Below are positions 24,325 to 52,425 of a stretch of DNA of 64,000 nt, one piece after another (within the stretch, counting starts at the first letter, position 1; the number at the start of each line of letters is the position of its first letter). A model generated the notes under the pieces. That model did not search any database, was not told where the DNA came from, and saw nothing but the letters and a program-made list of their open reading frames with translations. Both the position numbers and the translations under genes were made by a program. This DNA comes from Nitrospirota bacterium (lineage in GTDB: Bacteria > Nitrospirota > Nitrospiria > Nitrospirales > Nitrospiraceae): assembly GCA_016219645.1 (NCBI GenBank), contig JACRLR010000020.1, positions 1 to 64,000 of the forward strand. The letters run 5' to 3'.

Positions 24325-24334
24325 CTGATCGCTG

Positions 24335-24690: not shown

Positions 24691-24695
24691 TAGGG

Positions 24696-25258: not shown

Positions 25259-25361
25259 TGTCCTTGAATTACCCGCCGCTGCCGATCAATACACAGTATC
25301 GGCAGCATATTACGTTGGTCCGTGGAGCATTACAAGCCAATGTCACGGGGAAAAGATTAAG

Positions 25362-26179: not shown

Positions 26180-26583
26180 GCGTTCCTTCTGGCGGTAAGG
26201 ATTCTTCGATAGTACGGCATGACATCGGCTTCCTCAGCAAGCATGCGCAGGATGAGTTCGGCATACTGCGTGCGATCTTTGCAGAGGATCAGTTTTCCCT
26301 GCGTCAGGATCCGATGCAGGAGTGGGCCATGGAGGCAGTTGAGATCGATCAGGTCAACTGGCCGGCCAAACATCAATGCCAGATCTTCGACCAGGTGAAT
26401 CCGAGCCTGCCTGTCAAGCGGCGTTGTCCCGGCTACAGCAAGATCGAGGTCACTCTCGAATCGGGCGGCACCTTCGGCCAGTGAGCCAAAAAGGATCGCC
26501 AAGGTCACAGCAGGGTGGCCAGCGAGAACCTCTTGGAGTTTCTGCTGGACATTGGCGGAGTCTCGATCGATTGCGTCTCTCAT
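26164..26583 (-). CDS. mntA: MntA-like nucleotidyltransferase antitoxin
   Basis: A 139-residue protein with the motif LFGSLAEGAARFESDLDLAV (G33-S34, D45, D47), matching MntA antitoxins that transfer AMP to the HepT tyrosine. PVDLIDLN supplies a third acidic position. The downstream HepT gene overlaps it, as expected for this operon. Confidence 0.88.
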   Translation of the reverse strand: MRDAIDRDSANVQQKLQEVLAGHPAVTLAILFGSLAEGAARFESDLDLAVAGTTPLDRQARIHLVEDLALMFGRPVDLIDLNCLHGPLLHRILTQGKLILCKDRTQYAELILRMLAEEADVMPYYRRILTARRNAWIGT

Positions 26584-26639
26584 GACCAGAGCCTTTGGAT
26601 GTCACTTATCATGATTCGCATGATGGTGCAAGGACACGA

Positions 26640-26810
26640 CGGGAAAATCAGGTTGAGGCTGAGTGGGGAAGGGGAACGTTGGAGGTTGGAGGCGCAAGTC
26701 GGGGGTAGCGAGGATAGAGGGATATGGGGGTAAGGGGGTAGTAGGAAGTGGCGAGTGGCCAGTGGTGAGTAGCGAGTGGGGAAGACTGTTGGAGGGGTGA
26801 GGGTGGAGGC
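26640..26810 (+). repeat. Purine-rich mosaic
   Basis: This block holds GGTTGAGG, GTTGGAG and GYNAGTG units between the MntA gene and the second HigBA copy. Confidence 0.8.
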
Positions 26811-27348
26811 GCTCGGGAAAATACAGGCCTCCGACCTGTCTTCAAGCTGAAACCAGGGTTTCCGTCACGCGTTTGACCTTGATGGTTCCAGCCTTTTTCT
26901 CCATCTGTGCCAGATCATACGCGGCCTGTAATCGCAACCAGGTCTCGGCTCCACCGCCAAAGGCTTTATCCAGCCGGATCGCCATTTCTGCTGAAATGGC
27001 AGCACTGCCCCTCACGAGGTTATTAAGAGCCTGGCGGGTTACGCCCAAGGCTTTCGCTCCTGCGGCTACCGACAGGCCGAGAGGCTCCAGGCAGTCATGC
27101 AACACCGAACGCCCAGGATGAGGGGGATTTTTCATACGCATCAGGTATCTCCTGCTAGTGATAATCAATCAAATCCACGTCATATGCCATACCCATTTCA
27201 AACCTGAAAATGATCCGCCAGTTTCCCGACACAGTGACCGACCAACACCCAGCGAGGTTCCCTTTCAGGGGATGCAGTTTATATCCCGGCAGGGCCATGT
27301 CCTGTACAGTCATGGCTTCATTCAGCCGCGCCAGTATCCGGACTATCT
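26808..27348. repeat. 540-bp duplication carrying higBA (second copy)
   Basis: This segment matches 19570-20113 with about ten to fifteen single-base differences, covering HigA, most of HigB and about 35 bases beyond. Both copies have the same orientation and lie 7.2 kb apart. The match begins at GCTCGGGAAAATAC inside a repeat block and ends within HigB. Confidence 0.85.
26842..27141 (-). CDS. higA: HigA-type antitoxin, copy 2
   Basis: Nearly identical in sequence to the HigA gene at 19605-19904, 99 residues, with the same helix-turn-helix (GAKALGVTRQALNNLVRGSA). The start at ATG 27141 follows AGGAGA by 6 bases. Here the upstream toxin gene is complete, so this is the working pair of the duplication. 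Confidence 0.87.
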   Translation of the reverse strand: MRMKNPPHPGRSVLHDCLEPLGLSVAAGAKALGVTRQALNNLVRGSAAISAEMAIRLDKAFGGGAETWLRLQAAYDLAQMEKKAGTIKVKRVTETLVSA

Positions 27349-27379
27349 TGTCGGCCTGCGAAGCAGGTACCTTATACAT
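27155..27379 (-). CDS. higB: HigB-type toxin (RelE fold), copy 2
   Basis: A 74-residue protein, short for the family, with RILARLNEAMTVQDMALPGY, KGNLAGCWSVTVSGNWRIIF and YDVDLIDYH. It holds the HigB core but begins late: the usual N-terminal strand is represented only by MYKVPASQADK. The true start could lie upstream at a non-ATG codon. It ends 13 bp before HigA. Confidence 0.8.
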   Translation of the reverse strand: MYKVPASQADKIVRILARLNEAMTVQDMALPGYKLHPLKGNLAGCWSVTVSGNWRIIFRFEMGMAYDVDLIDYH

Positions 27380-27419
27380 TTATCTTCGCTGTAAAGTGAA
27401 GCTTTACGATGTCGAGGTC

Positions 27420-27545
27420 GCGAGGGGTGAGTGGGGAAGACTGTTAGAGGGGGGAGGCGGGCAATTGCACGCGAGACTGGCGGGACGAGCGAGAAAGGCG
27501 CGACAGGTGGCAAGTTTAAAGGGTCAGGGTTCAAGTTTGGGGTCT
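27420..27545 (+). repeat. Purine-rich mosaic with GCGGGAC module
   Basis: A short block with the GACTGGCGGGACGAGCGAGA module (near 27475) and GTTTAAA-like units, lying directly upstream of the promoter of the Phd/RelE operon. Confidence 0.75.
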
Positions 27546-27557
27546 AGAATGTCCTAT

Positions 27558-27586
27558 TTGACCTGTTTGGTCAGATTGGCTACAAT
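27558..27586 (+). promoter_or_regulatory. Sigma-70 type promoter of the Phd/RelE operon
   Basis: TTGACC (27558-27563) and TACAAT (27581-27586) are 17 bases apart, close to consensus. The expected transcription start, about seven bases after the -10 box, falls at or next to the ATG at 27594, so the message may be leaderless. Confidence 0.65.
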
Positions 27587-27593
27587 GTCCATC

Positions 27594-27866
27594 ATGAAGA
27601 AATACCAAACAGCTCACTCTTTGAATACGGTCACGGCAACCAAAGCGAAAGCCAGCTTCTCAGCCGTGTTGGCTCAAGCCGGCTATCAAGGGCAGCGGAT
27701 CATCGTCAAAAAGGGGAGGCGCCCGACTGCCGTGATCCTCGGGTACGAAGATTTCCAGCGCCTTGCTGATCTCGAAGATCGGTACGAGTCAGCGCTTCTT
27801 ACCAAGAGTCTGAAGGACGATCGATTCCTCCCTCTCGATGAAGTAATCCCCCGTCTCGGCCTGTGA
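27594..27866 (+). CDS. Phd/YefM-family antitoxin
   Basis: A 90-residue antitoxin with the Phd pattern: NTVTATKAKASFSAVLAQAG, then RIIVKKGRRPTAVILGYEDF and a C-terminal DDRFLPLDEVIPRLGL. ATG 27585 overlaps the -10 box, so ATG 27594 is more likely. The stop overlaps the GTG start of the toxin gene by 4 bp (27863-27866). Confidence 0.86.
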   Translation: MKKYQTAHSLNTVTATKAKASFSAVLAQAGYQGQRIIVKKGRRPTAVILGYEDFQRLADLEDRYESALLTKSLKDDRFLPLDEVIPRLGL

Positions 27867-28156
27867 GTTATTCACTCGAATTCTCAGAGGCGGTCTTCGA
27901 CACACTGGAAGATCTCGGACATACAGATGCGAAACGCCTTCGCCAAGTCTTTCTCAAGATCATAAGCCTTCGCCGTACTCCTCGCCCCTCAGACTCTGAA
28001 CAGCTTTCTCATTTCACCTACCGGGGTCTTACCGGCTTTCGTGTTACACAGGGCGAATATCGCATTGTCTATGCGATCGACGAGAAGGCCAAAGTGGTGA
28101 AGCTTGCGCGGATTCTGCACCGTGATCGAGACTATCGTGAACTGGACCAGATCTAG
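27863..28156 (+). CDS. RelE/ParE-family toxin
   Basis: A 97-residue toxin with YSLEFSEAVFDTLEDLGHTD, a basic middle, then YRGLTGFRVTQGEYRIVYAI and KLARILHRDRDYREL, the conserved core and C-terminal strand of RelE. It begins with GTG inside the end of the antitoxin gene. The role is presumably ribosome-dependent mRNA cleavage. Confidence 0.87.
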   Translation: MSYSLEFSEAVFDTLEDLGHTDAKRLRQVFLKIISLRRTPRPSDSEQLSHFTYRGLTGFRVTQGEYRIVYAIDEKAKVVKLARILHRDRDYRELDQI

Positions 28157-28164
28157 GAGCCTGT

Positions 28165-28290
28165 CGGTTGAGGTTAAGGTTGAGCGGGGAGGGGAGTCCT
28201 GAATTCGGAATGTGGAATGAGGAATTATGAATGAGGGAGAGGGAGGGCTGAAGACTGGTGAGTAGTCAGTGGTCAGTGGCAAGTGGTAAA
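28165..28290 (+). repeat. Purine-rich mosaic
   Basis: GGTTRA units, GGAATKA units and GYNAGTG units run in that order between the RelE and VapB genes. Confidence 0.78.
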
Positions 28291-28297
28291 GAGAGAG

Positions 28298-28321
28298 GGA
28301 TCAGGCACCATTTGCTGATCC
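28298..28321. repeat. Hairpin holding the TCAGGCACCATTTG motif
   Basis: The arms GGATCAG and CTGATCC enclose GCACCATTTG. The 14-mer TCAGGCACCATTTG (28301-28314) recurs exactly at 29701-29714, again at the edge of a repeat block. Confidence 0.6.
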
Positions 28322-28331
28322 TGTTATGAGT

Positions 28332-28356
28332 GTGTATATTAGGCGACAGTATACAC
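28332..28356 (+). promoter_or_regulatory. Probable operator of the VapB gene
   Basis: The inverted repeat GTGTATA ... TATACAC (arms 28332-28338 and 28350-28356, spacer 11) lies 22 bases before the VapB start, where ribbon-helix-helix antitoxins usually bind their own promoter. The embedded TATATT could serve as a -10 box. Confidence 0.55.
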
Positions 28357-28377
28357 CTGACTGAAAGGGCATTCATC

Positions 28378-28587
28378 ATGCGGACCAACATTGTCATCAA
28401 CGACAGGCTCATGCGCCAAGCGATGAAGGCGTCGGGCTTGCGGACCAAGCGGGAGACGGTGGAGGCGGGGCTAAAGCTACTCGTGCAGATTCAGGCGCAG
28501 ACTGTCATTCGTCGCCTCAAGGGCGCCGTTCGATGGGAGGGGAACCTTGAGGAATCTCGAACAAGCCGGGTTCCACTTGCCTCATGA
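28378..28587 (+). CDS. vapB: VapB-type antitoxin, orphan
   Basis: A 69-residue ribbon-helix-helix antitoxin: RTNIVINDRLMRQAMKASGL and TKRETVEAGLKLLVQI are the DNA-binding and dimer part of the VapB (DUF2191-like) family; the tail has RLKGAVRWEGNLEESR. I chose ATG 28378 (family start) over 28330. Its partner gene is only an eight-codon stub, so it now stands alone. Confidence 0.85.
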   Translation: MRTNIVINDRLMRQAMKASGLRTKRETVEAGLKLLVQIQAQTVIRRLKGAVRWEGNLEESRTSRVPLAS

Positions 28588-28610
28588 CGGTGGTCGACAC
28601 CACCGTGTAA
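28584..28610 (+). pseudogene. VapC toxin stub (eight codons)
   Basis: The ATG overlaps the VapB stop (ATGA) and reads MTVVDTTV before TAA. This is the start of a VapC PIN domain, where the Asp of VVDTTV is catalytic. The rest of the toxin is missing and about 30 bases later a pyrimidine-rich repeat begins. Confidence 0.7.
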
Positions 28611-28639
28611 CGACCGAAACTTAGATAACCTCTTCAGGC

Positions 28640-28755
28640 CTCCTACCTTCAGCCTTCTCCTTAACCTCAACCTCTCTTCCCCACTTGCCACTTACTACTC
28701 ACGAATTTTTACGACTCACCAATTTTGAGCCCTTCAGCCTTCGCCTCAACGTTCC
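28640..28755. repeat. Pyrimidine-rich mosaic
   Basis: C/T-rich complements of the heptamers and hexamers seen in the island (CTTCAGC, CTCAACCT, CACTTAC types). The G/C strand bias switches here, at the end of the toxin-antitoxin island. Confidence 0.8.
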
Positions 28756-28775
28756 GATAAGACTCAGTGATCCCC

Positions 28776-28789
28776 CCCCCTTCGGGGGG
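28776..28789 (+). terminator. CCCCC-TTCG-GGGGG hairpin
   Basis: A stable UUCG tetraloop stem after the VapB region, followed by the moderately T-rich CTTGATTATCTT. It could end transcription leaving the island. Confidence 0.4.
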
Positions 28790-28854
28790 CTTGATTATCT
28801 TATGGGGGATTGGTCATAAGTGTGCGCGAGAAGGTCTGTCTCGTCTGTCTGGTT

Positions 28855-28965
28855 TATGTGGTTTGTTAGTTTATTTAGTTTGTTTCGTTCATCTGATCGG
28901 GCTTGTTCAACCAAATGAACCAAACAAACCAAACAAACAAACAAAATGAACCAAACAAACCCTCT
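28855..28965. repeat. GT/CA palindrome containing a start codon
   Basis: The GT-rich arm is about 28855-28890 and the CA-rich arm about 28912-28965. The CA arm includes the ATG at 28946 and the first codons of the next gene (MNQTN). Confidence 0.78.
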
Positions 28966-29689
28966 GTCGCGCTACTCCCGTAGCCTCGGATTCACCGCTG
29001 CCCTTCTGCTCTGTGCCGGCATCGCCACGGCGCCGGCCATGGCGTCATCCGTTCCGATCACGTTCACATTCACCGGAAAGGTGACCGAGGTCGGTTACGA
29101 AATGGGTGAACACTTCGGTGGGCCCTTCAGGCTCGACAAGCCAGTGACCGGCTCCTATACATTTAATCCGGATACCCCCAATACCGGATCAGGCTCCATC
29201 GGACAATATAACGGTGCTCTCAATGACCCCCTCAACAATTACCCATCCACGAACCTGCATGTTGAAATAGAGACCTATAATGGAACCTATGTGGCGTCGC
29301 TGGGCTCTGGTGACAATAAGATTGTCGTGAAGAACCCGGATAACTTTAATTATGAATCGTATCAGGTGAAAGGAGCATTTTCAGGTGATCCAGTGACCGG
29401 GCATAATCCCGAATCCTTTGCACTTGAATTAGCGCATCCTGGCTCTAATCAGTTCGATAATGTGTCGTTACCCACTACTCCCCCGACCATCTCCGGATTT
29501 GCTGTGAAGGAATTCCGTCTGGTGTTCGCACATAGTGCATCCCCCGACCGCCATACCGTCGTCGTGACGTTGGAGACGCTGACGGCAGTGCCTTTGCCAC
29601 CAGCCGTAATTCTCTTCGGCGCCGGGCTCGTAGCCCTGATCGGTCTTGGAGTGAGAAGAAAGGTTAAGGTTGAGGCTAAGGTTGAGTAG
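28946..29689 (+). CDS. VPLPPA-type (PEP-CTERM-like) sorting-signal protein 1
   Basis: A 247-residue secreted protein. The N-terminus holds a signal peptide (FTAALLLCAGIATAPAMA). Near the C-terminus VPLPPAVILFGAGLVALIGL followed by Arg/Lys forms an exosortase sorting signal: a Pro-rich motif, a transmembrane helix and a basic tail. The middle is beta-rich with no known domain. Two oddities concern repeats: the first codons come from a GT/CA palindrome, and the last residues (KVKVEAKVE) come from GGTTRA hexamers, so both ends appear to be captured repeat DNA. Confidence 0.84.
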   Translation: MNQTNPLSRYSRSLGFTAALLLCAGIATAPAMASSVPITFTFTGKVTEVGYEMGEHFGGPFRLDKPVTGSYTFNPDTPNTGSGSIGQYNGALNDPLNNYPSTNLHVEIETYNGTYVASLGSGDNKIVVKNPDNFNYESYQVKGAFSGDPVTGHNPESFALELAHPGSNQFDNVSLPTTPPTISGFAVKEFRLVFAHSASPDRHTVVVTLETLTAVPLPPAVILFGAGLVALIGLGVRRKVKVEAKVE

Positions 29690-29718
29690 AACCCAAGCGG
29701 TCAGGCACCATTTGTCGC

Positions 29719-29822
29719 GGGGTCAGACACCCTTCCAATACCGCTGCGGGTGGTGTCTGACCCCTTGCAGGGAAGGGGTCAGGTCCCACGCGAAGCGCGA
29801 ATAAGGGGGCCAGACCCCTGGC
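29719..29822. repeat. GGGGTCAGAC hairpin repeat (REP-like)
   Basis: A perfect 13-bp stem, GGGGTCAGACACC (29719-29731) with GGTGTCTGACCCC (29752-29764), is followed by two more imperfect GGGGTCAGG/GGCCAGACCCC units. This lies in the gap between the first two sorting-signal proteins. Elements with GGGGTCAGAC cores are common REP-like repeats in several bacterial groups. Confidence 0.7.
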
Positions 29823-30017
29823 GCTGCGCGCAGATAGTGGCTGACTCGCGCTCAACCTAAATTTTTCCTAAAACCGCTCTTTTCCCTACTTTAGAGGAAT
29901 AGAAGGGCTCGATCCCCCCAGTGTAAGGTGTGTCCTCAACCCGCAAGGAACATTGAGCTTTCGGCAGAAGTGCCGTCAGTCAAACCGTGATTGGGTCATT
30001 AACAAGGAGCGAGCACC

Positions 30018-30845
30018 ATGCAACATATCCATTCCGGTTTTCTGAAGCTGGCTTTGACGGCAAGCATCCTGCTTGGCGCAGGCCTCGCGGTCACTCCGGT
30101 CATGGCTGCGTCAACGACGTTCCAATTTACGGGATTAGTGGATACCACTGTTGGAATAGTGTCTCAAACAGCTCAAACCAGTGTTTCCAACATCGGCAGC
30201 AATCTTCTCGACGACGGCAATCCCATTAATGGCACATCGCCCTTTGGCAGTAGCGGCCTTACGCCTATCGGTAATCCATTCTTGCTGTCAGGGTCCTTTA
30301 CGTTTAGCGATGCCACCCCAAATTCGGGCAACTCGACAATCGGAGTTTACAACAATACGCTTTCACAACTGACTTTTAATCTTAGTAATTCGTCCGGTGT
30401 TATCTACACTGGTACCTATAACAATCCACCGGGCCTAAGCACTCCCAATTCCATTGTCGTCTTCAACGACTTTCTCGCAACGCCTCCTCCTTTTTTCTCT
30501 CCTGGATTAGATGGGTTATCCTTGACTACGCCCATCTTAGGACCACAAGTGAACGGACTCGGCCCTCTCACCTTTGAGTTAGAACTTTTAAGCCCCTTTG
30601 CCCCATTTACGAATAATTCATTGCCGACAACGACACTGCTTTCTCCACCGAGCGTGAACCCCTTTTTATCACCGAACTTTCGTGTTGTGTTCGCTGGTGG
30701 AGGAACGCCGAACACACTTCGCGGCGATCTTACCTCTTTGACGGCAGTGCCCTTGCCGCCGGCGGTGATTCTCTTCGGCGCAGGGCTGGTGGCGTTGATC
30801 GGTCTAGGAGCCAGGAACTGGCAGCGGGCTAGAACGGAAGGTTAA
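30018..30845 (+). CDS. VPLPPA-type sorting-signal protein 2
   Basis: A 275-residue secreted protein with a clear signal peptide (LALTASILLGAGLAVTPVMA) and the C-terminal signal VPLPPAVILFGAGLVALIGL followed by GARNWQRARTEG. The middle is rich in Ser, Asn, Thr and Pro. AAGGAG lies 8 bases before the ATG. The exosortase encoded at 34158-35813 would be its processing enzyme. A terminator follows at 30945. Confidence 0.88.
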   Translation: MQHIHSGFLKLALTASILLGAGLAVTPVMAASTTFQFTGLVDTTVGIVSQTAQTSVSNIGSNLLDDGNPINGTSPFGSSGLTPIGNPFLLSGSFTFSDATPNSGNSTIGVYNNTLSQLTFNLSNSSGVIYTGTYNNPPGLSTPNSIVVFNDFLATPPPFFSPGLDGLSLTTPILGPQVNGLGPLTFELELLSPFAPFTNNSLPTTTLLSPPSVNPFLSPNFRVVFAGGGTPNTLRGDLTSLTAVPLPPAVILFGAGLVALIGLGARNWQRARTEG

Positions 30846-30900
30846 GGTTGAGGCTAAGGTTGAGCGGGGAAGAATGCTGGAGGTGTTTAGAGGCGAACGG
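30840..30900 (+). repeat. GGTTRA repeat after the stop codon
   Basis: GGTTAAGGTTGAGGCTAAGG is present directly at the stop of the sorting-signal gene, followed by a short GTTGGAG-like run. Confidence 0.7.
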
Positions 30901-30944
30901 AGAGAATAGCGGTCTGTTTGGTCTATCTGGTCTATTCGGTCTGT

Positions 30945-30992
30945 CTGGTCTGTCTTGTTTGTTGAGTCGAACGAGACAGACCAGATTTTTTT
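30945..30992 (+). terminator. Rho-independent terminator (GT/CA palindrome type)
   Basis: The stem CTGGTCTGTCTTGTT (30945-30959) pairs with AACGAGACAGACCAG (30970-30984) at 14 of 15 positions and is followed by ATTTTTTT. It lies about 100 bases after the stop of sorting-signal protein 2. It suggests that at least some GT/CA palindromes act as terminators. Confidence 0.75.
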
Positions 30993-31019
30993 GTCTCTAA
31001 TCTCTATCTCCCACCATCT

Positions 31020-31345
31020 TTCCCCTTAGCCTTAGCCTCTCTTCAGACCTCACACGTCCAACACTCTTCCACACTCAACCTCAACCTTAACCTCAGCCTC
31101 TCCTAAGACTGCCTCCAACATTCCCATCCCTGCTCAACCTTAACCTTTCTTTCCGCCTCCAACATCTAATTCTTCATTCCTAATTCCTAATTCAACGTTC
31201 CAACTCAGAGCCCAGAACTTACCCCCCCCCTTACCCCTCACCCCTAACCCCTCACGTCTGCCCCCCTTTCCCTCAACCTCAACCTTCTTCATTCCACTCC
31301 CTGCTCAACCTTAACCTTAACCTCAACCTCTCCGGGAACCCCCTC
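31020..31345. repeat. Pyrimidine-rich mosaic
   Basis: Over 300 bases of CTCAACCT hexamers and CACTTAC-, CTAATTC- and TCAGAAC-like heptamers ahead of the third sorting-signal gene. No gene is visible. Confidence 0.83.
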
Positions 31346-31487
31346 CTTCGAACTATAGACGCCCCTTAAGACCGATAGACGACCTACATCAGTACAGTGA
31401 TAGGGTGTGTCCACGATCATGAACGGAATTCGGTGTCTTGAGGATTGTCTTCAGACAAATGTACTTGCCATAGGATGGGAAAGCAGC

Positions 31488-32120
31488 ATGTATAACATCC
31501 ACTCCGGCTTTCTGAAGCTGGCTTTCACGGTAAGCCTATTGCTCTGCACAAGCATCGCAGTCAATCCAGCCAACGCTTCGCTGGTGGATTTTAACTTTGC
31601 GGGCTCGGTGGCTTCATTCAGTTCAGGGCTGCCAAACTTCAGTGTGGGCCAAGCGATGTCGGGTCTAATTAGGTACGACGATACGACTTCTGACAGCAAT
31701 GGCCTTGACGGTATTGGACAGTACACCGCCGCAATCACGGGTGGATCTATTCAGTTCAATGGTGTTGGTGGGTACAGCGCAACGCTAGATTCCACAGGCA
31801 GCTTTATAAATATTGAGCAAGTCGGGACTATGGATGTGTATAAGTTGCATGCCCCTGTCGCTGGGTCGCTATCCGATTACTTTGAAATTACGATTATCCA
31901 CTCCCCAAGCGCCTTCACAAACACATTGTTTCCACCGAGTCTCGGTATGATAGCTTCTGCTCAGTTTCGCCTTGTGTTCGGGGATGGCGGCCCCAAAGAA
32001 GTCAAGGGCCCTTTGACAGCAGTGCCCTTGCCACCGGCCATGATTCTCTTCGGGGCGGGACTTGTGGCGTTGATCGGTCTCGGAGCCAGGAACTGGCAGC
32101 GGGCGCAAGCAGAAGGTTAA
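31488..32120 (+). CDS. VPLPPA-type sorting-signal protein 3
   Basis: A 210-residue secreted protein. The start at ATG 31488 (MYNIHSGFLKLAFTVSLLLC) matches the start of protein 2, so it is preferred over 31407. After a beta-rich middle the C-terminus has VPLPPAMILFGAGLVALIGL and GARNWQRAQAEG. It is probably processed by the same exosortase. Its function is unknown. Confidence 0.86.
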   Translation: MYNIHSGFLKLAFTVSLLLCTSIAVNPANASLVDFNFAGSVASFSSGLPNFSVGQAMSGLIRYDDTTSDSNGLDGIGQYTAAITGGSIQFNGVGGYSATLDSTGSFINIEQVGTMDVYKLHAPVAGSLSDYFEITIIHSPSAFTNTLFPPSLGMIASAQFRLVFGDGGPKEVKGPLTAVPLPPAMILFGAGLVALIGLGARNWQRAQAEG

Positions 32121-32400
32121 GGTTGAGGCTAAGGTTGAGTGGGGAAGAATGCTGGAGGTGTGAGGCTGGAGGTTAGAGGCGAACGGAGAGAAGCTGAAGG
32201 TTTGAGGTACGAGGTTGGAGGCAGGAATGGCTTCCAACCTCGAACTTTTTCTGGGCTCTATTAGAAGTCCTGCAATATCATCATTCTTTCCTCCCTGTAA
32301 TTCATAATTCCAAATTCATCATTCTTAATTCCTAACCCAAAACCTCCCTGCTCAACCTTAGCCTTAACCTCAGCCTCTCTTCAGACCTCAACCTCTCCTC
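32118..32400. repeat. Purine-rich then pyrimidine-rich repeat pair
   Basis: GGTTRA and GTTGGAG-type units (32118-32225) follow the stop, and CTCAACCT-type units (32345-32400) precede the next gene. GGAAT-like complements lie between them. The two blocks could pair. Confidence 0.78.
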
Positions 32401-32550
32401 GGAGCCCCCCCTAAAGAGGGGGTAGACACACTACTTATGTGGGTTGTACACTGCGGCGCAAGATTATAAACGGGCTTCTCTGATTTGAAAATCTATTTTG
32501 GAAAAATTGCACTTTAGCTAGTAAATCTTTGGGAATTGGGGAGGTGTATT

Positions 32551-33252
32551 ATGCAACGTATCCGTAAGAGTTTCCTCACACTTGCTGTCACGGCAAGTGT
32601 GCTGCTTGGAGCAAGCATCGCGGTCACTCCCGCAAGCGCTGCAACTATAAACTTCAGCTTCACCGGCACTGCGCTGGTGACAAACGTTCTATTGTCGTCC
32701 CAAGGAATTAGCGGGGGGGGTGGATCAGCCTCTGGCTCATTCAATTACGACAGCATCACGGGTCTTATTTCGGCTCCGTCACTCTCCATTTCCATCCCTG
32801 CCATTGCTCCATCCCCTAGCCCCTATGTGTTGACAGGCGTCCCCAGTGCATCGAATCTCGTGCAAATTTTTAATGATCAAGTCATTGGGCCAAATGTCAG
32901 AGATCGATGGTTGGCTGCGAGCGACGTCACTGGTGCTCTGCTCCCCAACGGATACCAAGCGTATCGCTTTGACCTTAATTTGGATCAGTTGGTAGCATCT
33001 CCATCGGTACCGAACCTTTTTCCCCCAACCAGCCCGCTCAATCCACCGAGCTTAAGTGATATATCGAAGCCGATCACAACGAAGCAATGGCGTGTTCTCT
33101 TTCAGAATGCCACGGGTGATACGGTCTCTGTTGTAGGGGCTGTGTCAAGCATAACAGCCGTGCCACTGCCGCCAGCCGTCATCTTATTCGGAGCTGGCCT
33201 CGTAGCGTTGATTGGGCTTGGAGCGAGGAACTGGCAGCGGGCGCAAGCATAA
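32551..33252 (+). CDS. VPLPPA-type sorting-signal protein 4
   Basis: A 233-residue secreted protein with signal peptide (LAVTASVLLGASIAVTPASA) and C-terminal VPLPPAVILFGAGLVALIGL, then GARNWQRAQA. The start is ATG 32551 with GGGGAGG 6 bases upstream; an upstream TTG at 32536 would include the ribosome-binding site. Proteins 2-4 share both ends but differ in the middle, so they look like a family with conserved export and sorting parts. Confidence 0.87.
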   Translation: MQRIRKSFLTLAVTASVLLGASIAVTPASAATINFSFTGTALVTNVLLSSQGISGGGGSASGSFNYDSITGLISAPSLSISIPAIAPSPSPYVLTGVPSASNLVQIFNDQVIGPNVRDRWLAASDVTGALLPNGYQAYRFDLNLDQLVASPSVPNLFPPTSPLNPPSLSDISKPITTKQWRVLFQNATGDTVSVVGAVSSITAVPLPPAVILFGAGLVALIGLGARNWQRAQA

Positions 33253-33420
33253 GGTTGAGGTTAAGGTTGAGCGGGGAGGGGAGATAGCCGCGCGCGACTA
33301 GCGGGACAGGCGAGACCAGCAAGTTGCTTGAGGTTTGAGGTACGAGGTTGGAGGCGGGAAGGCTTCCAACCTCGAACTTTTTTCAGGCTCTCTTAGAAGT
33401 TCTGTCCCCCTGTCTTTCCC
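33250..33420 (+). repeat. Purine-rich repeat block
   Basis: GGTTRA units lie at the stop of protein 4, then AGCGGGACAGGCGAGACC and GTTTGAG-type units. The phrase CTTCCAACCTCGAACTTTTT occurs here and also near 32230. No gene is visible up to 33520. Confidence 0.7.
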
Positions 33421-33521
33421 TCCGACACCTCCAGCAGACGCCGGGCCATCAAGCCCCCATACTCTCTTGCTTTAAGTTGTGCTGAACAAAAGCTTCAGCT
33501 ATAGTCGCGCCATCCTACCTG

Positions 33522-33637
33522 ATGAAAACGCTAGACGACATTCGCCGACTGCTATCCACGATTCTGACCTGCTGAAGATCATTACGGTCTATGAGCCGGA
33601 CCCAGCAGAGTGGTATGATTACGCCAGACGGAGGTAG
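33522..33637 (+). pseudogene. DUF4258-like toxin with internal deletion
   Basis: An N-terminal piece (MKTLDDIRRLLST) is joined out of frame to a C-terminal piece, LLKIITVYEPDPAEWYDYAR, ending at TAG 33635-33637. The C-terminal TVYEPDPAEW end is typical of small toxins encoded ahead of YgiT-type antitoxins. The middle of about 50 residues is missing, so the gene is dead. Confidence 0.62.
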
Positions 33638-33639
33638 CT

Positions 33640-33870
33640 ATGTTTCGCTGTCATGTGTGCGGGAAAACGGAGAGCCGTCAACAACTGGTCAGCGAGGTCT
33701 TCGATATCGAGGGTAAACCCGTGCAGGTTGAGCAGATTCCCGCGATGGTCTGCATTCACTGTGGAGAGCCAGTATTCAGCCGCGAGACAACCGAGCGAGT
33801 TCGGCGCATGGTGCATGGGGAAGCGAAGCCAATCAAGTCGATTCAGATGGACGTGTTTGCCTACCGGTAG
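33640..33870 (+). CDS. YgiT-type zinc-finger antitoxin (MqsA-like)
   Basis: A 76-residue protein with an N-terminal zinc finger: CHVCGK (C4, C7) and MVCIHCGEPVF (C38, C41), the YgiT/MqsA N-domain. The usual C-terminal DNA-binding domain of MqsA is absent, as in many YgiT-only antitoxins. It begins 2 bp after the broken toxin gene and so appears to be an orphan. Confidence 0.82.
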   Translation: MFRCHVCGKTESRQQLVSEVFDIEGKPVQVEQIPAMVCIHCGEPVFSRETTERVRRMVHGEAKPIKSIQMDVFAYR

Positions 33871-33884
33871 TCCTTCTTCCTCTC

Positions 33885-34110
33885 CCGATCAACCTCTCCT
33901 AGGACTGCCTCCAACCTCTAACCCCCAACCTTCTTCCCTCTCCCCCCACTTACCCCTTGCCCCTCACCCCTAACCCCTCACGTCTGCCCCCCTTCCCCGC
34001 TCAACCTCAACCTCTCTTCAGACCTCCCACCTCCAACATTATTCTTTCCCGCTCAACCTTAACCTCAACCTTAACCTCTCTCTATCCGCCTCAACCTTCC
34101 TCCCAGGTAG
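33885..34110. repeat. Pyrimidine-rich mosaic upstream of the exosortase
   Basis: CTCAACCT hexamers and CTCCAAC/CACTTAC heptamers fill the gap before the exosortase gene. Confidence 0.82.
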
Positions 34111-34157: not shown

Positions 34158-35813
34158 ATGATCTATGCCACGACCATGGATACAACCACGCGATTGACGC
34201 TATCCGACGGGCCCAGCCGGATGCTGTGGGGTTTGCTCACCACCGGCATCGCTATCGCCCTTCTGGGATACATCTATGCCGACAGCCTCCCCAGATTGTT
34301 CGGCCACTGGATCACCAGCGAAGATTATGGCTATGGGTTATTTGTCCCACCGATCAGCCTGCTCTTAATCTGGCAGGCCCGCCATCGCATCGCTGCAGCC
34401 GGTAGTGGGAACTCATGGTGGGGCATCGTTGTTGTTTTAGCCGGACTCTTACTTTATGTGATTGGTGAGTTCGCCACTTTGTTCGTCCTGCAGCATCTGT
34501 CGCTCTGGATGGTCATTGTCGGGCTGGTCGTTGCACTAATCGGAGTACCCGGGGCAAAGGCGATTGGCTTCCCGGTCGCCTATTTATTGACCAGCATCCC
34601 ATTGCCGGCTTTTTTGTATGCAAGTCTGTCCAGTAAATTACAATTGTGGTCCTCGGCTCTCGGAGTAGGCAGCTTACAGCTTGTCGGGGTGACTGCCTTC
34701 CGTGAAGGCAATGTGATCGATCTGGGGCCAGTTCAACTTCAAGTGGTCGAGGCCTGCAGCGGCATCAGATATTTGTTTCCGCTCACCTCCCTTGCTCTGC
34801 TCTGCGCCTATCTCTTCAAGGATCGGATGTGGAAACGAGTGCTGCTCGTTCTTTCGTCGATTCCGATCTCCGTTCTCGTGAACGGTTTTCGCATCGGGAT
34901 GATCGGCGTGCTAGTCGAATGGTACGGACAGGAGGCATCCGAGGGTTTCTCCCATCTCTTCGAAGGCTGGGTCCTCTTCATGGCAAGCCTAGGTCTCCTG
35001 ATTCTAGAGATGTGGCTCTTAGCCAAAATCGGCCCGAGTCAGGACCGATCCTCCTTTCTCAGCAAATTCACCTGGTCCGATCCCGACCCCAACCTTCCTC
35101 ATCCCACTCAACCTCAGCCTCAACCTTCTTCGTTCCCTCGCTCAACCTCAACCTTAACCTCAACCTTCCCCCCCCCCGCCTACCTCCTCGGCGTCGCTCT
35201 TCTCGTTCCTGTCGCCTTCGCTTCGACATTCATGGTCGAGCGCGAAGAGGTTCCACCGGAGCGAGCCATCTTTGTCGATTTCCCCATGCAGTTCGAAGGA
35301 TGGGCCGGTACATCGAGCACATTAGAAACAAAGTACATCGATGCACTGCGTTTCGACGATTATCTGTTGGCCGACTATCGTTCAGAAGATGGGCATCCAG
35401 TCAATTTGTACGCAGCCTACTATCGATCACAAAGAAAGGGACAATCGGCCCACTCTCCGCAAAGTTGTCTTCCAGGCGGTGGCTGGGAAATCTCCTCATT
35501 AGATACGGTGGATTTATCGGCTGACTCAGGCATGGCTCGATCGCTGCACGTCAATCGGGCCTTGATTCAAAAAGGCGGCCAGAAACAAATCGTGCTGTAC
35601 TGGTTCAAACAGCGTGAGCGGATCATCAGCAATGAATATCTCGTCAAATTATTTTTGTTCTGGGATGGCCTGACGCGAGGGCGGACCGATGGGGCACTTG
35701 TGCGAATCGCCTCAATCGTCGGCCCGGGGGAAACCGAGGATGTTGTGGACGAACGGCTCCGCAAGTTTGTGGCAACGATTGAGCCGGAGTTGCTCAGGTA
35801 TGTCCCAGATTAG
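34158..35813 (+). CDS. Exosortase fused to EpsI domain (XrtD-like)
   Basis: A 551-residue membrane protein. The first 300 residues hold about eight transmembrane helices and the exosortase catalytic residues: C200 in VVEACSGIRYL, R245 in NGFRIGMIGV and H266 in EGFSHLFEGW. Residues from about 345 are an EpsI domain (FPMQFEGWAGTSS ... SPQSCLPGGGWEI). Fusion to EpsI and VPLPPA-type targets suggest the XrtD class. It would cut sorting signals in the inner membrane. A linker of about 30 residues (310-339) is encoded by CTCAACCT repeats. Confidence 0.85.
   Translation: MIYATTMDTTTRLTLSDGPSRMLWGLLTTGIAIALLGYIYADSLPRLFGHWITSEDYGYGLFVPPISLLLIWQARHRIAAAGSGNSWWGIVVVLAGLLLYVIGEFATLFVLQHLSLWMVIVGLVVALIGVPGAKAIGFPVAYLLTSIPLPAFLYASLSSKLQLWSSALGVGSLQLVGVTAFREGNVIDLGPVQLQVVEACSGIRYLFPLTSLALLCAYLFKDRMWKRVLLVLSSIPISVLVNGFRIGMIGVLVEWYGQEASEGFSHLFEGWVLFMASLGLLILEMWLLAKIGPSQDRSSFLSKFTWSDPDPNLPHPTQPQPQPSSFPRSTSTLTSTFPPPAYLLGVALLVPVAFASTFMVEREEVPPERAIFVDFPMQFEGWAGTSSTLETKYIDALRFDDYLLADYRSEDGHPVNLYAAYYRSQRKGQSAHSPQSCLPGGGWEISSLDTVDLSADSGMARSLHVNRALIQKGGQKQIVLYWFKQRERIISNEYLVKLFLFWDGLTRGRTDGALVRIASIVGPGETEDVVDERLRKFVATIEPELLRYVPD
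35088..35175 (+). repeat. CTCAACCT repeats inside the exosortase gene
   Basis: The six-base repeat continues in frame through the gene and encodes the linker between the two domains, with runs such as QPQPQP and STSTLTSTF. The reading frame is kept because the unit length is a multiple of three. Confidence 0.82.
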
Positions 35814-38020: not shown

Positions 38021-40402
38021 ATGAAATTTCAGAACATCATTATAATGGTGGTGGTGTTTTCGCTTTTTGCCTGTGGAGGGCCGGAGGAGCGGAAGGCTAC
38101 GTACCTCGCGCGGGCGAAAGAGTTCATTGAAGCAGGCAACTATCCAAAAGCCCGGGTCTCCCTACGTAATGTCCTCAAGATTGATCCGAAGGATGCGAAT
38201 GCCCATTTTCTGTTTGCTCAAGTAGAAGAAAAGGAAAAAAACTGGCGGAACGCCGTCGCTCTGTATCAGGAGGTCGTCTCGATCAATCCTGATCACACCG
38301 GCGCTCAGATCATGTTGGCGAAGTATTACCTTGAAGCCAGACTGACCGAACATGTCGTCTCAGCGGCGGACAAGGTGCTGGCAAAAGATCCTCAGCAGCC
38401 CCAAGCGCAGGCCCTCAAAATTGCGGTGCTGGCTGTGGAGGGAAACCTCTCTGATGCCAGAACCAAAGCCGAGGCTTTGAGGTCGCAATTTCCAACCGAG
38501 CCTGATGTAGCCATCTTACTGGCCACGCTCTACAGCCAGGAGCAGCACTATCGCGACGCGGAGGCGACGCTGCAGCAGGCGCTGGAGGCCCATCCGAAAG
38601 ACATGGATCTCCTGAACAATCTGAATCAGATCCTGATCCAGGCCAAAGATATGGCAGGTGCGGAGAGAGTCGCGCGCCGTATGATTGAAGCGGAACCGAC
38701 CCTATTTGATCACCGGCTCAGGCTGGCCCGGTTCTTCAATGAGCAGGGGGCCCATGACAAGGCAGAGGCAGTATTGCGCGAAGCCATCGCCCTCGATCCG
38801 AATAGCGAGGAACGCCGTCTCCTGTTGGCAGATTTTTTCAGTGGGAGGAAAGATCATCGTGCCGCTGAACAGGCGCTCCTGGAAGCAGCAAATAAATTGT
38901 CCCATTCGACAAAGATCCAATTCGCCCTTGCAGCTCTGTATCTTAAGAGTGGACAGGATGCCAAGGCACGTGAGCTCTATGCTTCAATGGTCAAGGAGCA
39001 CAAGGAGAAGCCACCGGGCCTCGAAGCCAAGGTGAAATTAGCGGAGCTGGATCTTCTTGCAGGCAAACAGGCTGAGGCAGAACGGCAAGTAGCAGAAGTC
39101 TTAAAGGAAAATCCCCGTTCGTCCGACGGGCTGGTGCTCTCAGGCCGGATAGCCCTCGCGAGAAGGAACGGGAAAGAGGCGGTCCAGGCCTTTCGAACCG
39201 TGTTGCATGACCAGCCGGAGCTGGCGACGGTACATTTTCTGCTCGGCCAGGCCTATGTCCTGACCGGGGAGAGCAGTCTGGCGAAAGAAAGTTTCGAGCG
39301 AGCCGTGGCGCTCTATCCCGGACAAATCGATGCGAGGCGGGCACTGGTCGCATTGGAGAGCCAGAGCGGTCAGTACCAGAAGGCCCGTGCCAGACTCGAC
39401 GATTTGTTGAAGCAGCGGCCGGATGATGTGGCAGCGCTCGAGATGTTGATGCGGGTGGATCTCATCACAAAAAATTGGGTGGAAGCAGAGCAGACACTGG
39501 AGCGTCTCCGTACCGCATCGAAGAATAGTGTCGTCGCCATCATGGCTGAGGGACGGTTGCGGCAGGCGCAGGGGCAACTCGACAAGGCTGTCATTGCTTA
39601 TGACCGTGCCGTGACCCTCGCTCCGAACGATCCTGAACCCCTGGTCACTCTGGTGAAGCTTGATGTTGCCCAAGGCCATGCGGATCGCGCGAGGACTCGC
39701 CTCGATGCATTGCTCGCTACGAAGCCGGACCATCCATTCGGCCATGGGCTCCTGGGTGAGGTGCTGGCTCTTACCGGTCATCCGCAGGAAGCCGATATCC
39801 AGTTTCGAGAGGCTACCAGGGTGAACCCCAAATGGCTCACGCCTTGGCTCGATTGGGGAGAATTGTGGATCGGGCAGAAACGGCCGGAGCAGGCCTTGCA
39901 AGTCATTCAGGCAGGCCTGAAGGCCAACCCCGAGAGCGAGGAATTGCAGATGCTTCTGGCATCGGTGTATTCCACGCAAGGCCAAATTGATCAAGCCATC
40001 ACAGCCTATGAGGGAGCCCTGCGACTGAATCCCCGTAACGTGCTGGTGGCGAACAATCTTGCGGTCCTGCTCGTCGATTACAAAGGAGATCCCCAGAGTT
40101 TACAAAAAGCCTTTGCCTTGAGCCGCGACTTCGAGAAGGAGGCGCCACATCCGCTCTTTCTGGATACGTTGGGATGGGTCCAGTTCAAGATGGGGCAACA
40201 GGAAGAGGCCCTTCGTCTCATGAAGGGGGCCGTGGCCAAATTGCCAGAAGCCCCCACGTTGAACTATCATCTTGGCATGGCCTTCTATCAGTCAGGAAAG
40301 ACCGCTGAGGCCAAAGTCTATCTTTCCAAGGCTCTGAAAAGTCCGGAAACCTTTGAAGGGCGTCAGGAAGCGGCGAAAATTTTGGCGCAGCTCAAAGGAT
40401 AG
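38021..40402 (+). CDS. prsT: TPR-repeat lipoprotein of the PEP-CTERM/exosortase system (PrsT-like)
   Basis: A 793-residue protein with a lipoprotein signal: FSLFAC places the lipid-bearing Cys at position 18. The rest is a long array of TPR repeats (for example ARVSLRNVLKIDPKDANAHF and AVALYQEVVSINPDHTGAQI). Proteins of this form accompany exosortases in EPS loci and are thought to act in export or assembly of the polysaccharide in the outer envelope. Confidence 0.86.
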   Translation: MKFQNIIIMVVVFSLFACGGPEERKATYLARAKEFIEAGNYPKARVSLRNVLKIDPKDANAHFLFAQVEEKEKNWRNAVALYQEVVSINPDHTGAQIMLAKYYLEARLTEHVVSAADKVLAKDPQQPQAQALKIAVLAVEGNLSDARTKAEALRSQFPTEPDVAILLATLYSQEQHYRDAEATLQQALEAHPKDMDLLNNLNQILIQAKDMAGAERVARRMIEAEPTLFDHRLRLARFFNEQGAHDKAEAVLREAIALDPNSEERRLLLADFFSGRKDHRAAEQALLEAANKLSHSTKIQFALAALYLKSGQDAKARELYASMVKEHKEKPPGLEAKVKLAELDLLAGKQAEAERQVAEVLKENPRSSDGLVLSGRIALARRNGKEAVQAFRTVLHDQPELATVHFLLGQAYVLTGESSLAKESFERAVALYPGQIDARRALVALESQSGQYQKARARLDDLLKQRPDDVAALEMLMRVDLITKNWVEAEQTLERLRTASKNSVVAIMAEGRLRQAQGQLDKAVIAYDRAVTLAPNDPEPLVTLVKLDVAQGHADRARTRLDALLATKPDHPFGHGLLGEVLALTGHPQEADIQFREATRVNPKWLTPWLDWGELWIGQKRPEQALQVIQAGLKANPESEELQMLLASVYSTQGQIDQAITAYEGALRLNPRNVLVANNLAVLLVDYKGDPQSLQKAFALSRDFEKEAPHPLFLDTLGWVQFKMGQQEEALRLMKGAVAKLPEAPTLNYHLGMAFYQSGKTAEAKVYLSKALKSPETFEGRQEAAKILAQLKG

Positions 40403-40590
40403 TAAGTGGTGAGTAGGGAGTAGTGAGTGGGGGTGAGTGGGGAGGTGAGGGGTAAAACTGGTAAGTGGCGAGTGGTGAGTAGCGAGTAGCAAGTGGGGGT
40501 ACGGGGTGAGTAGGGAGCGTTGGAGGCCTGAGGTTTGAGGTTGGAGGCAGGAAGAAAGGTTGAGGCTGAGGTTAAGGTTAAGTCGGGAAG
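40403..40590 (+). repeat. Purine-rich mosaic after PrsT
   Basis: GYNAGTG units (40403-40500), then GTTTGAG-like and GGTTRA units. The complementary CTCAACCTTAACC run lies inside the start of the next gene (40635-40665). Confidence 0.8.
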
Positions 40591-40614
40591 GCATGAAGAG
40601 GGGATGCAACTGAT

Positions 40615-41241
40615 ATGAGGAAATTCAAATCTTCGCTCAACCTTAACCTTAACCTCAACCTTCCCTGCCTGGCCTTGTTTTTTGCCTTGATGGCAGGTGG
40701 CGGGGTGGCATGTAGTTCCAATGTGATAGGAGCAACTGCGACGACGCCGGCGGTTGATGCCGGCTATCGACTTGGAGCGGAAGATGTCATGTCGATTTCC
40801 GTGTGGAAGGACGAGCAGCTTACCAAGGAAGTCGTCGTACGACCGGACGGGATGGTGTCCTTCCCCCTGGTTGGCGACATACAGGCGGAAGATCGCACGG
40901 TTGAGGAGATTCGTGTCGACATCGTCAAGAGGCTGAATAAATACATCCCCAATCCCAATGTCTCGGTGGCAGTCTTGAAGGTGCTGAGCTACAAGGTCTA
41001 TATCGTCGGCCGAGTCAACAAACCGGGAGAGTACTTGATCGGCCACTATACAGACGTGCTCCAGGCCTTGAGTTTAGCCGGAGGCTTAACACCCTTTGCC
41101 GCAGAGAATGACATTAAGGTGATCCGGCGCGTGAAAGGCCAGCAGCAGGTCTTTCCCTTCAGATATGGTGACGTCCGAAAGGGGCAGGATCTGGATAAGA
41201 ACATTCTATTGCAGCGCGGCGATGTGGTGATGGTCCCCTAG
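40615..41241 (+). CDS. Polysaccharide export lipoprotein, Wza-like
   Basis: A 208-residue protein with a lipobox ending at C33 (GGVAC), a Poly_export domain (YRLGAEDVMSISVWKDEQLT, then VVVRPDGMVSFPLVGDIQ) and a SLBB segment (YKVYIVGRVNKPGEYLIG). It should form the outer-membrane or periplasmic export channel. The signal peptide is odd: residues 8-16 are a Leu-Asn alternation encoded by CTCAACCT-type hexamers, i.e. intergenic repeat captured by the gene. Confidence 0.86.
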   Translation: MRKFKSSLNLNLNLNLPCLALFFALMAGGGVACSSNVIGATATTPAVDAGYRLGAEDVMSISVWKDEQLTKEVVVRPDGMVSFPLVGDIQAEDRTVEEIRVDIVKRLNKYIPNPNVSVAVLKVLSYKVYIVGRVNKPGEYLIGHYTDVLQALSLAGGLTPFAAENDIKVIRRVKGQQQVFPFRYGDVRKGQDLDKNILLQRGDVVMVP

Positions 41242-41450
41242 AGAAAGGTTGAGGTTAAGGTTAAGGTTGAGTGGGGAGGGAAGGAAGAAGGTTAAGGTTA
41301 AGGTTGAGCACGGAGAATTAAGAAGGTTGAGGTGAGCGGGCTCAAGAGAGGTTGAGGTTCAGGTTAAGGTTGAGTGGGGAAGATTTAGGTTAAGGACACA
41401 AGACTTGGTATTTTCTTCACTTAACCTTAACCTCAACCTCAACCTTCTGA
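41242..41450. repeat. GGTTRA and complementary CTCAACC repeats
   Basis: Several GGTTAAGGTTGAGG runs (41246-41390) are followed by ACTTAACCTTAACCTCAACC (41418-41445), the latter inside the next coding sequence. The arms are closely complementary. Confidence 0.82.
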
Positions 41451-42619
41451 GCAGGGCTCTTTGTCTAGCCCTGCTACTCGGAGGAATGCCGCTCTCCCTC
41501 GTTTGGGCTGCTGAGTGGACGGTCCTGCCGTCGATTGGAGTGACCGGCATGTACAACGATAACTTACTTATGACCACGCAGCCGCACGATGCGACCTATG
41601 GGTTCTGGGTGTCACCAGCAGCAGAGCTTACGGGAAAAACAGAAAACCTACGTGTAAGTAGTCAGGCCAAAGTCTCCTTTGCGTCATACTATGGAGGGGA
41701 CCCGTTCAATTTTACCAATTATTTCCTGCCATTATCTGTTCGCTATCAGACCGAGAAGGATCTGCTGGCCTTTACCGGCGGATATATCCGTGACAATACC
41801 CTGTTGGGAGAACTGCTGGACACAGGCTTAGTTGTGCGCTTCACCCAGAGGAACCAATGGACTGCCAATCCGACCTGGACCAGGAAAATCACTGAAAAAC
41901 TGTCGTCGCAAGCAGGTTTTCGGTTCAATGATACCAGCTATGAGGACGCCTCGAATACTGGCCTGCGGGACTATCAACTCTATGGTGGATCAGGCGGGCT
42001 GCTCTATCAAGTGACCGAGAAGGACCAACTCCAGCTATCGGGCACATACATGAATTTTCACACAATAAACTCTCCAACGCCGGTCCGCTCCAGCATTCCA
42101 GGTGTCAACCTGGCCTTGACCCATGCCTTCACAGAAACTCTGACTGGAACGGTATATGGCGGACCCAGTTTTGTCAGTTCGACGGCCAACACTGCCAGTG
42201 GTAACGTAACAGCTCACAATACAGTCTGGCTTTTCGGCGCCAATATCACAAAAAAGTTTGAGCAAACTTCTGTCCAACTTGAAGTGGGGCGGAGTATCGT
42301 ACCGAGCGGAGTGGGTTTGCTGGTTCAAGTAGACCGTGCAGGCATGACAGTTTCCCATAATCTGACCGAAGCTCTGACTGCCTCTTTCAACGGTTTCGCT
42401 AATAAAACCTCAGCCATCTCGTCGCAGGCATCAGCCCAATTCCCTGAGCAACATTTCTTGTCTGCCACGCCTGCGATCACCTGGAAATTTGCCGAGTGGT
42501 GGAAGGTAGAGCTGTCCTATAGCTATCGGTATCGTGAGGTAGACGGGGTCGCAGGCATAAGCACAGGCACAGCCACATCCAATAGCACGATGTTCACGCT
42601 CTCCTACAACTACTGGTAA
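41405..42619 (+). CDS. Outer-membrane beta-barrel protein of the EPS locus
   Basis: A 404-residue protein with a signal peptide ending near LSLVWA|AEW and a body of alternating strands rich in Tyr, Thr and Ser, ending TMFTLSYNYW with a terminal aromatic residue as in outer-membrane barrels. Such proteins are normal members of exosortase EPS loci and probably carry the polysaccharide out. The start is a TTG at 41405, with AAGGA about 9 bases upstream; its signal peptide also begins with a Leu-Asn repeat (SLNLNLNLNLL) from hexamer DNA. Confidence 0.82.
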   Translation: MVFSSLNLNLNLNLLSRALCLALLLGGMPLSLVWAAEWTVLPSIGVTGMYNDNLLMTTQPHDATYGFWVSPAAELTGKTENLRVSSQAKVSFASYYGGDPFNFTNYFLPLSVRYQTEKDLLAFTGGYIRDNTLLGELLDTGLVVRFTQRNQWTANPTWTRKITEKLSSQAGFRFNDTSYEDASNTGLRDYQLYGGSGGLLYQVTEKDQLQLSGTYMNFHTINSPTPVRSSIPGVNLALTHAFTETLTGTVYGGPSFVSSTANTASGNVTAHNTVWLFGANITKKFEQTSVQLEVGRSIVPSGVGLLVQVDRAGMTVSHNLTEALTASFNGFANKTSAISSQASAQFPEQHFLSATPAITWKFAEWWKVELSYSYRYREVDGVAGISTGTATSNSTMFTLSYNYW

Positions 42620-51098: not shown

Positions 51099-52040
51099 TC
51101 AGTTCTTGACTTTGCACTTGGCAAAGAGCCGCGCTTGCGGCGGAGTGAGCGCCGCAGCTTCTAGCGCGGTTTGAATTTTCGAAACCCGAGAAGGCGAAAT
51201 GCGAAAACGCATGGCCACGGTCTGCAAGGGTTCGTTCGCGGCGCGCCGCAGCAAGTATACGGCTGTTTGATACGCCTCGCGGTGGGAACGATTGAGCAGG
51301 GCGCCCGGGTGAAGTCGATAGGCCACAGCGACGTGCTGGATGACATCTTCGGGAGTCAGACGAGTCGGACGGGTCTGAACGGTCGGCACATTCGTCACAG
51401 GCTTCCCGCGCACGAGTTGTTCGATCCGCTCGAGGAAATCCGGACCTCCAAGAAAAATTTGGCCCGTCACATCTTTCCACGGTGAAGGCTGGTGGATCCC
51501 CTCCGTGACGAAGCGTTGGTATGCCATTCGAGCATTCGCCATGTTGCTCTCGAAGAGTGAGAGTACGGTCGCAGTGTCGAGCCAATCTGGTGCTGCGTGT
51601 GTTCCTACGGTGGCTCGATAGCTGCTCCACGCCCACGCTCCCACTGTGTTCACCATGCCGGCTCGAACCGGATTTAGCACGACATAACGACACAGTTCTT
51701 GCAAATAGTTTTCCTTTTCCACAAGGAGGCTCTTAAATCGGCCCTGCAGCACGTGCCCAACACGGTGGTGACGGCGATTGAACCATTGTGTGTAGGTGCC
51801 GTGGAGTCGTTTCAGGCCTCGACTGAGATTGGGCTCTGGCGTTTCGATCACAAGATGATAGTGATTGCCCATCAAGCAATAGGTGTAGCATCGCCAATGT
51901 TGCTGCGAAATTTCCCGACCGAGCAAGCGGATAAACTGCTGCCGATCTGTGTCATCCACGAAGATGGACTGCTGCGCGTTGCCCCGGGCGGTGATGTGGT
52001 AGAGCGCGCCAGGGAATTCGAGACGGAGTGGGCGAGCCAT
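51099..52040 (-). CDS. REP-associated tyrosine transposase (RAYT, IS200-like)
   Basis: A 313-residue protein. The Y1 transposase core is complete: PGALYHITARGNAQQ, the HUH motif in CLMGNHYHLVIETPEP (H60, H62) and the catalytic Tyr in ENYLQELCRYVVLNPVRAG (Y112). The C-terminal third has a helix-turn-helix-like part (VAMRFRISPSRVSKIQTALE). Such proteins spread REP palindromes. A REP-like element sits 80 bases upstream of its start (52120-52245). Confidence 0.84.
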   Translation of the reverse strand: MARPLRLEFPGALYHITARGNAQQSIFVDDTDRQQFIRLLGREISQQHWRCYTYCLMGNHYHLVIETPEPNLSRGLKRLHGTYTQWFNRRHHRVGHVLQGRFKSLLVEKENYLQELCRYVVLNPVRAGMVNTVGAWAWSSYRATVGTHAAPDWLDTATVLSLFESNMANARMAYQRFVTEGIHQPSPWKDVTGQIFLGGPDFLERIEQLVRGKPVTNVPTVQTRPTRLTPEDVIQHVAVAYRLHPGALLNRSHREAYQTAVYLLRRAANEPLQTVAMRFRISPSRVSKIQTALEAAALTPPQARLFAKCKVKN

Positions 52041-52245: not shown

Positions 52246-52337
52246 GATGGCTTCTGAATGAACCAAACAAACAACTACCGTTCTGCTCCAGCTCTTGATC
52301 GCTGTTGTGGTAATCTAACGGAGCAACGGAGCGAAGC

Positions 52338-52425
52338 CGGTTTATTTGGTTTGTTTGGTTTATTTTGTTGTTCGGACCAACCGCACTAAATAACGAAACA
52401 AACCAAATAAACCAAACAGACCCAC
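52338..52425. repeat. GT/CA palindrome upstream of malic enzyme
   Basis: The GT arm is about 52338-52372 and the CA arm about 52377-52425, in the gap before the malic enzyme gene. Confidence 0.8.

Follow-up and report, generated by a model that had tools for sequence, protein, structure and literature searches.

Two neighbouring genes of an export operon in an uncultured Nitrospira-group genome begin with runs of Leu-Asn codons written in short DNA repeats. The locus raises the question of where these runs come from, and whether they are protein at all. The window analysed here is the whole 64,000-nucleotide stretch that carries the operon, and the named relatives used for comparison are nearly all Nitrospira.

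Results

Two genes of an exopolysaccharide operon open with repeat-coded Leu-Asn runs

Both genes belong to an exopolysaccharide operon of the PEP-CTERM type and have TIGR02917 and TIGR03007 genes as neighbours. The Wza-like ORF 40615-41241 (ATG start) reads MRKFKSSLNLNLNLNLPCLALFFALMAGGGVAC, then SS, and the beta-barrel ORF 41405-42619 (TTG start) reads MVFSSLNLNLNLNLLSRALCLALLLGGMPLSLVWA, then AEW. Each crosses a four-unit CTYAAC array, as the initial annotation had recognized. The features around the two starts, and their copies elsewhere, were as follows.

40556-40582, + strand: G-strand (GAGGTT) arm upstream of the Wza-like gene, pairing with 40636-40662 in the fold
40583-40635, + strand: wza loop with GAGGGG (40598-40603), ATG (40615) and codons RKFKSS; 40/51 identical to a non-genic copy
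40615-41241, + strand: Wza-like outer-membrane export lipoprotein, XrtA/PEP-CTERM type (TIGR03027, 139.9 bits)
40636-40662, + strand: C-strand arm, translated LNLNLNLNL inside the signal peptide; repeat sequence CTCAACCTTAACCTTAACCTCAACCTT
41348-41374, + strand: G-strand arm upstream of the barrel gene, pairing with 41420-41446
41375-41419, + strand: barrel loop with AAGGA (41392-41396), TTG (41405) and codons VFSS; 30/35 identical to two copies
41405-42619, + strand: PEP-CTERM-associated outer-membrane beta-barrel-like protein (TIGR03016, 47.6 bits)
41420-41446, + strand: C-strand arm, translated LNLNLNLNL in an extended n-region; repeat sequence CTTAACCTTAACCTCAACCTCAACCTT
60537-60588, - strand: non-genic wza-loop copy, with GAGGTT arm 60589-60614 and AACCTC arm 60511-60536 (minus-strand reading)
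61464-61510, - strand: non-genic barrel-loop copy between arms; 30/35 identity (61464-61489)
C10:21992-22017, - strand: second non-genic barrel-loop copy, on contig C10; 30/35 identity

TIGR03027 was the best family for the first protein, at a score below its curated cut-off of 180, hence "-like", and TIGR03016 was the best family for the barrel, also below its curated cut-off (90.85). In both precursors the Leu-Asn array is followed by a hydrophobic core as well as a plausible cleavage site. The barrel coordinates appear sensible although the start is TTG, because AAGGA sits 8 nt upstream of it.

The arrays are arms of a dispersed palindrome

An 18-base CTYAAC-array pattern, allowing up to 2 mismatches, had 58 matches in the window, where shuffled sequence predicts 0.01. 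Across the 3.65 Mb genome, the exact degenerate array pattern was present 72 times and its reversed control not once; nearly all of these copies fell in the window and in C10:1-27 kb. Array size was constant across sites, with a mode of four units (49 of 97 arrays); the arrays were interrupted by CTC/CTT/AGC variants, and the hexamer arrays shared the flanks tcccc[g] ... ctt[tc]ct. The repeat element is an inverted pair in which a loop of about 20-120 bases separates a GAGGTT-type arm from the AACCTC-type arm that follows, and it occupies intergenic DNA beside gene ends. Where arms of the two types lay within 150 nt of each other, the G-arm came first in 15/15 pairs of this genome and in 45/45 pairs of relatives (60/60 in total). 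The unit of placement is the palindromic element as a whole, its array fixed (usually at four units), and not a variable number of hexamers. The arrays in the two genes are the 3' arm of this palindrome, which bears out the earlier proposal that they are the same in kind as the intergenic arms.

Hexamer arrays were almost confined, within the genome, to C10:1-17000 and window positions 17000-34000, where small ORFs are mixed with them (L001 and L002 on C10). A second repeat type with a hairpin-like layout, AACCAAACA-like words and their complement, was seen at 3874-3914, 28909-28959 and 52260-52420. G-strand heptamers directly follow the stop of the TPR gene (40402-40410), as they do in the relative G037.

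The start codons lie in loops that recur outside genes

The wza loop aligned without gaps over 51 bases with the minus-strand loop at 60.5 kb, 40 being identical, and 0 of 300 shuffles did as well; for the barrel loop, the matches at 61.4 kb and C10:22.0 kb were likewise equalled in 0 of 300 shuffles. Such copies are few, one for wza and two for the barrel. Because both starts sit in loops with non-genic copies, the element probably supplied the start codon and first codons as well as the repeat at both genes. The initial annotation had credited the repeats with the 5' parts of the genes, and the recurrence of the start-codon loops outside genes strengthens that view.

The direction of copying, from element to gene or from gene to element, can be argued only from the likeness of the two non-genic barrel-type loops, which resemble each other more than the gene copy. 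Since both read TCCGGAC where the gene has TAAGGAC, the AAGGA before the barrel TTG may have arisen in the gene copy. At C10:21966-22017 (-) (L002:6966-7017), a barrel-type loop and LN array are open into a four-helix-bundle-like ORF, for which a native GTG start is likelier.

Relatives carry no repeat, heptamers or hexamers at the same site

The proposed comparison with orthologues lacking the repeat was made. In most Nitrospira, the gap between the TPR gene and mature Wza is about 115-140 bases and is taken up almost entirely by an ordinary signal peptide; in about 40 named Nitrospira orthologues the wza signal peptide lacks the repeat and the gap is short. At the same position, the wza signal peptide is heptamer-coded in G037 (CG24E), which reads LESVIKRLRLATYHLPLTTPLLLFALLAGC, G063 (WB-IL-04), LGSVIKRLPLATYHLPLAAPLLLLALLAGC, and G060 (L.E.N.18), LESGIKRLKLTTHNLQLTTPLLLLALLAGC; the Wza of G060 is 92% identical over the aligned part, and its first codon is TTG. 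These three signal peptides are collinear and of the same length, with no indel over 30 codons, and their core differences are almost all third-position (2, 0 and 10 at the three codon positions). The barrels of G037 and G063 are also heptamer-coded, and the G132 barrel reads SSSLSLNLSLGLL, a hexamer version, at the same site. The unit type, heptamer or hexamer, has thus turned over at one site, heptamers being no less able to enter than hexamers. In a tree of mature Wza, the window grouped with G037 and G063 (support 92/87), many forks being open.

These results contradict the earlier idea that only a unit of six bases, which keeps the frame, can enter genes. Heptamers code the signal peptide at this very place in three close relatives, and they also code exosortase linkers in relatives (see below). 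The hexamers themselves occur in each of the three reading frames in a single operon, and two or three frames of the AACCTC strand are free of stops.

The same start-in-loop layout was found in G023 (genus g2) at an unrelated adaptor lipoprotein, whose PLTSTLTLAFFLLSAC is coded by a hexamer arm. Between wza and the barrel in L060, L061 and L062 there are compact barrel genes whose starts lie close to GGAGG-ATGAGGTTGGAGG-like words, similar to the intergenic G-strand heptamers.

Repeats also encode a linker and C-terminal tails

The neighbouring ORF 34158-35813 encodes an exosortase of the VPLPA-CTERM kind that carries an EpsI domain and scores 537.5 bits for TIGR04152 (VPLPA-CTERM exosortase XrtD), above the curated cut-off of 400. 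Two further coding features were found here and upstream.

35107-35167, + strand: two C-strand arrays in the exosortase-EpsI gene (34158-35813), residues about 317-337, in QP and ST frames
29656-29689, + strand: G-strand array coding the basic tail RRKVKVEAKVE (then stop) of a VPLPA-CTERM protein (28946-29689)

The linker arrays are translated QPQPQP and STSTLTST, and neither in the window species nor in several relatives is the ORF interrupted by its repeat-coded linker. A predicted model (AlphaFold) of modest quality (mean pLDDT 61.5), used only for linker placement, puts residues 307-335 in low-confidence coil. The linker is variable, and in relatives it is likewise repeat-like, with heptamer coding. 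Those of G060 (LEVRGLRSEA), G063 (LKVRGPRSEA) and G071 (LEVRGPRSEA) clearly combine the G-strand words given in brackets with C-strand words, and C-strand-like words occur in G074, G079, G094 and G097. In the more distant half of the genus the linkers are unrelated.

Four consecutive VPLPA-CTERM genes (28946-33252) end at one G-strand array type, at 29663, 30841, 32116 and 33254; the array gives the stop TAA for three of them and a coded tail for one. A GGDEF-domain gene (56334-57587) also ends in RKLEAKVEVE and a stop (57567-57587), coded by a G-strand array.

Proposed origin of the Leu-Asn runs and alternative explanations

We consider it likely that the Leu-Asn runs are translated 3' arms of a dispersed hairpin-forming element, repeat DNA having been co-opted as tolerant coding sequence. 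In both the wza-like and the barrel gene, the element would have run over the 5' boundary, leaving the start codon in its loop; its 3' arm would code what lies between that codon and the conserved hydrophobic core of the signal sequence. Almost any open sequence would be accepted in the n-regions of signal peptides, in linkers between domains and in C-terminal tails, and the element would for that reason survive there as coding DNA. Use of these start codons, export of the precursors, and tolerance rather than selection as the reason for the placement are inferences from sequence.

An unlikely alternative is a regulatory hairpin: the palindrome would be retained because its RNA stem, which encloses the start codon, governs how the export operon is translated or how its mRNA decays, and the Leu-Asn codons would merely follow from the need for a second arm within the gene. 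The region around the wza-like start was predicted to fold into a long stem of -57.5 kcal/mol (z -5.1) with the ATG between the arms, and that around the barrel start into one of -67.9 kcal/mol (z -9.9), again with the TTG between the arms; the heptamer arms of L040 pair too (-56.7 kcal/mol), and the layout is repeated in G023. Such very stable hairpins enclosing both starts should lower initiation, which counts against the preferred reading. However, G063 retains the coding C-arm without a matching upstream G-arm, most orthologues have no hairpin, and hairpins also occur in non-genic places and inside a linker.

Quite improbable, in our judgement, is a broader scheme in which one palindromic family would be a source of protein boundary parts, with C-arms giving signal-peptide starts, loops start codons, G-arms stops and sorting-signal tails, and whole elements linkers, while the hairpin retained around the starts would regulate translation of the export and sorting operon as well.

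That the runs are untranslated leader, with true starts downstream and a fortuitous in-frame Leu-Asn reading, seems very unlikely. Arrays in an open LN or ST frame do precede native starts elsewhere: in-frame arrays upstream of an obvious native start were plain leader at accC (C20:77997), L097, L044, L100 and L105. The barrel could also start at CTG 41447, which would leave its array untranslated, but no Shine-Dalgarno-like sequence precedes that CTG. For the wza-like genes of the window and the three relatives, a start further downstream would in no case preserve both a charged n-region and the core, and the exosortase linker, lying mid-gene, has to be translated if a single protein is made from that gene. 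Two candidates for further coding arrays were rejected: the array at C20:77892, before accC, has an open LN frame but is true leader, and the ST-frame arrays of L096 and L108 lie inside RHS-like repeats and look coincidental.

It is most improbable that slippage in unit number tunes (hexamer) or switches (heptamer) export, as in Neisseria opa CTCTT: the repeat does lie inside the signal peptide, and losing one heptamer would shift the relatives' frame, but the arrays are interrupted and of fixed size across sites, which also ruled out a slippage microsatellite, the three relatives are identical in length at the wza site, and no variant in unit number was seen among the genomes compared.

Discussion

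Translation of a dispersed palindrome, the reading preferred here, has known counterparts. In Rickettsia and Wolbachia, the dispersed palindromes RPE and WPE lie in frame in the ORFs of working genes, some of them N-terminal with expressed products (PMC3767692; PMC3733652). The likeness to RPE, judged by form and placement, consists in a dispersed palindrome, here with inverted pairs throughout and folds, and in in-frame copies within ORFs of conserved genes, here wza, the barrel, the exosortase linker and the VPLPA tail. Unlike RPE/WPE, the arms here are hexamer or heptamer arrays, the loop gives a start codon, and the arms code signal peptide, linker and C-tail.

REPs, short palindromic sequences located at the ends of genes, frequently provide stop codons and are in some cases found within ORFs (PMC3733652); they have been described at N-termini too, with the caution that many copies there may not be translated (PMC3733652, PMC3767692). 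In contrast to REP/BIME/RAYT-mobilised repeats, the elements here have no consistent GTAG/CGTC tag and carry the hexamer flanks given above. One Y1_Tnp (IS200-like) gene was found in the genome, inside the repeat-rich window (51102-52040, -). RAYT mobilisation was considered but not adopted: Y1_Tnp was present in 99 of 147 genomes and common in array-free ones, with no obvious tracking of arrays.

The TAACTGA heptamers of Beggiatoaceae and cyanobacterial STRR-type repeats consist of short units repeated in intergenic DNA immediately before genes, and some lie in the ends of ORFs (PMC4679880), and the opa CTCTT repeats of Neisseria code part of a signal peptide (PMC3899988). TAACTGA/STRR-type heptamers are direct repeats, whereas the arms here are inverted and ordered, with varying units; opa repeats slip and switch frame, whereas the arrays here are fixed-size and interrupted. 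In unit or in location, TAACTGA and opa repeats come closer to the elements here, but their form differs. By analogy, protein-coding palindromic elements (Rickettsia RPE, REPs in ORFs) appear to be the closest known kind, of which the start-supplying repeat here would be a variant. An open-access literature search for Nitrospira repeats returned nothing on these elements.

The natural series of no repeat, heptamer-coded and hexamer-coded sequence suggests how non-coding repeat DNA becomes protein, including a start codon in a loop, and points out protein parts that accept nearly arbitrary sequence. It also cautions that gene callers will set starts wrongly in genomes of this kind. For coding palindromes, the question of whether they are tolerated or used as hairpins becomes testable on defined genes.
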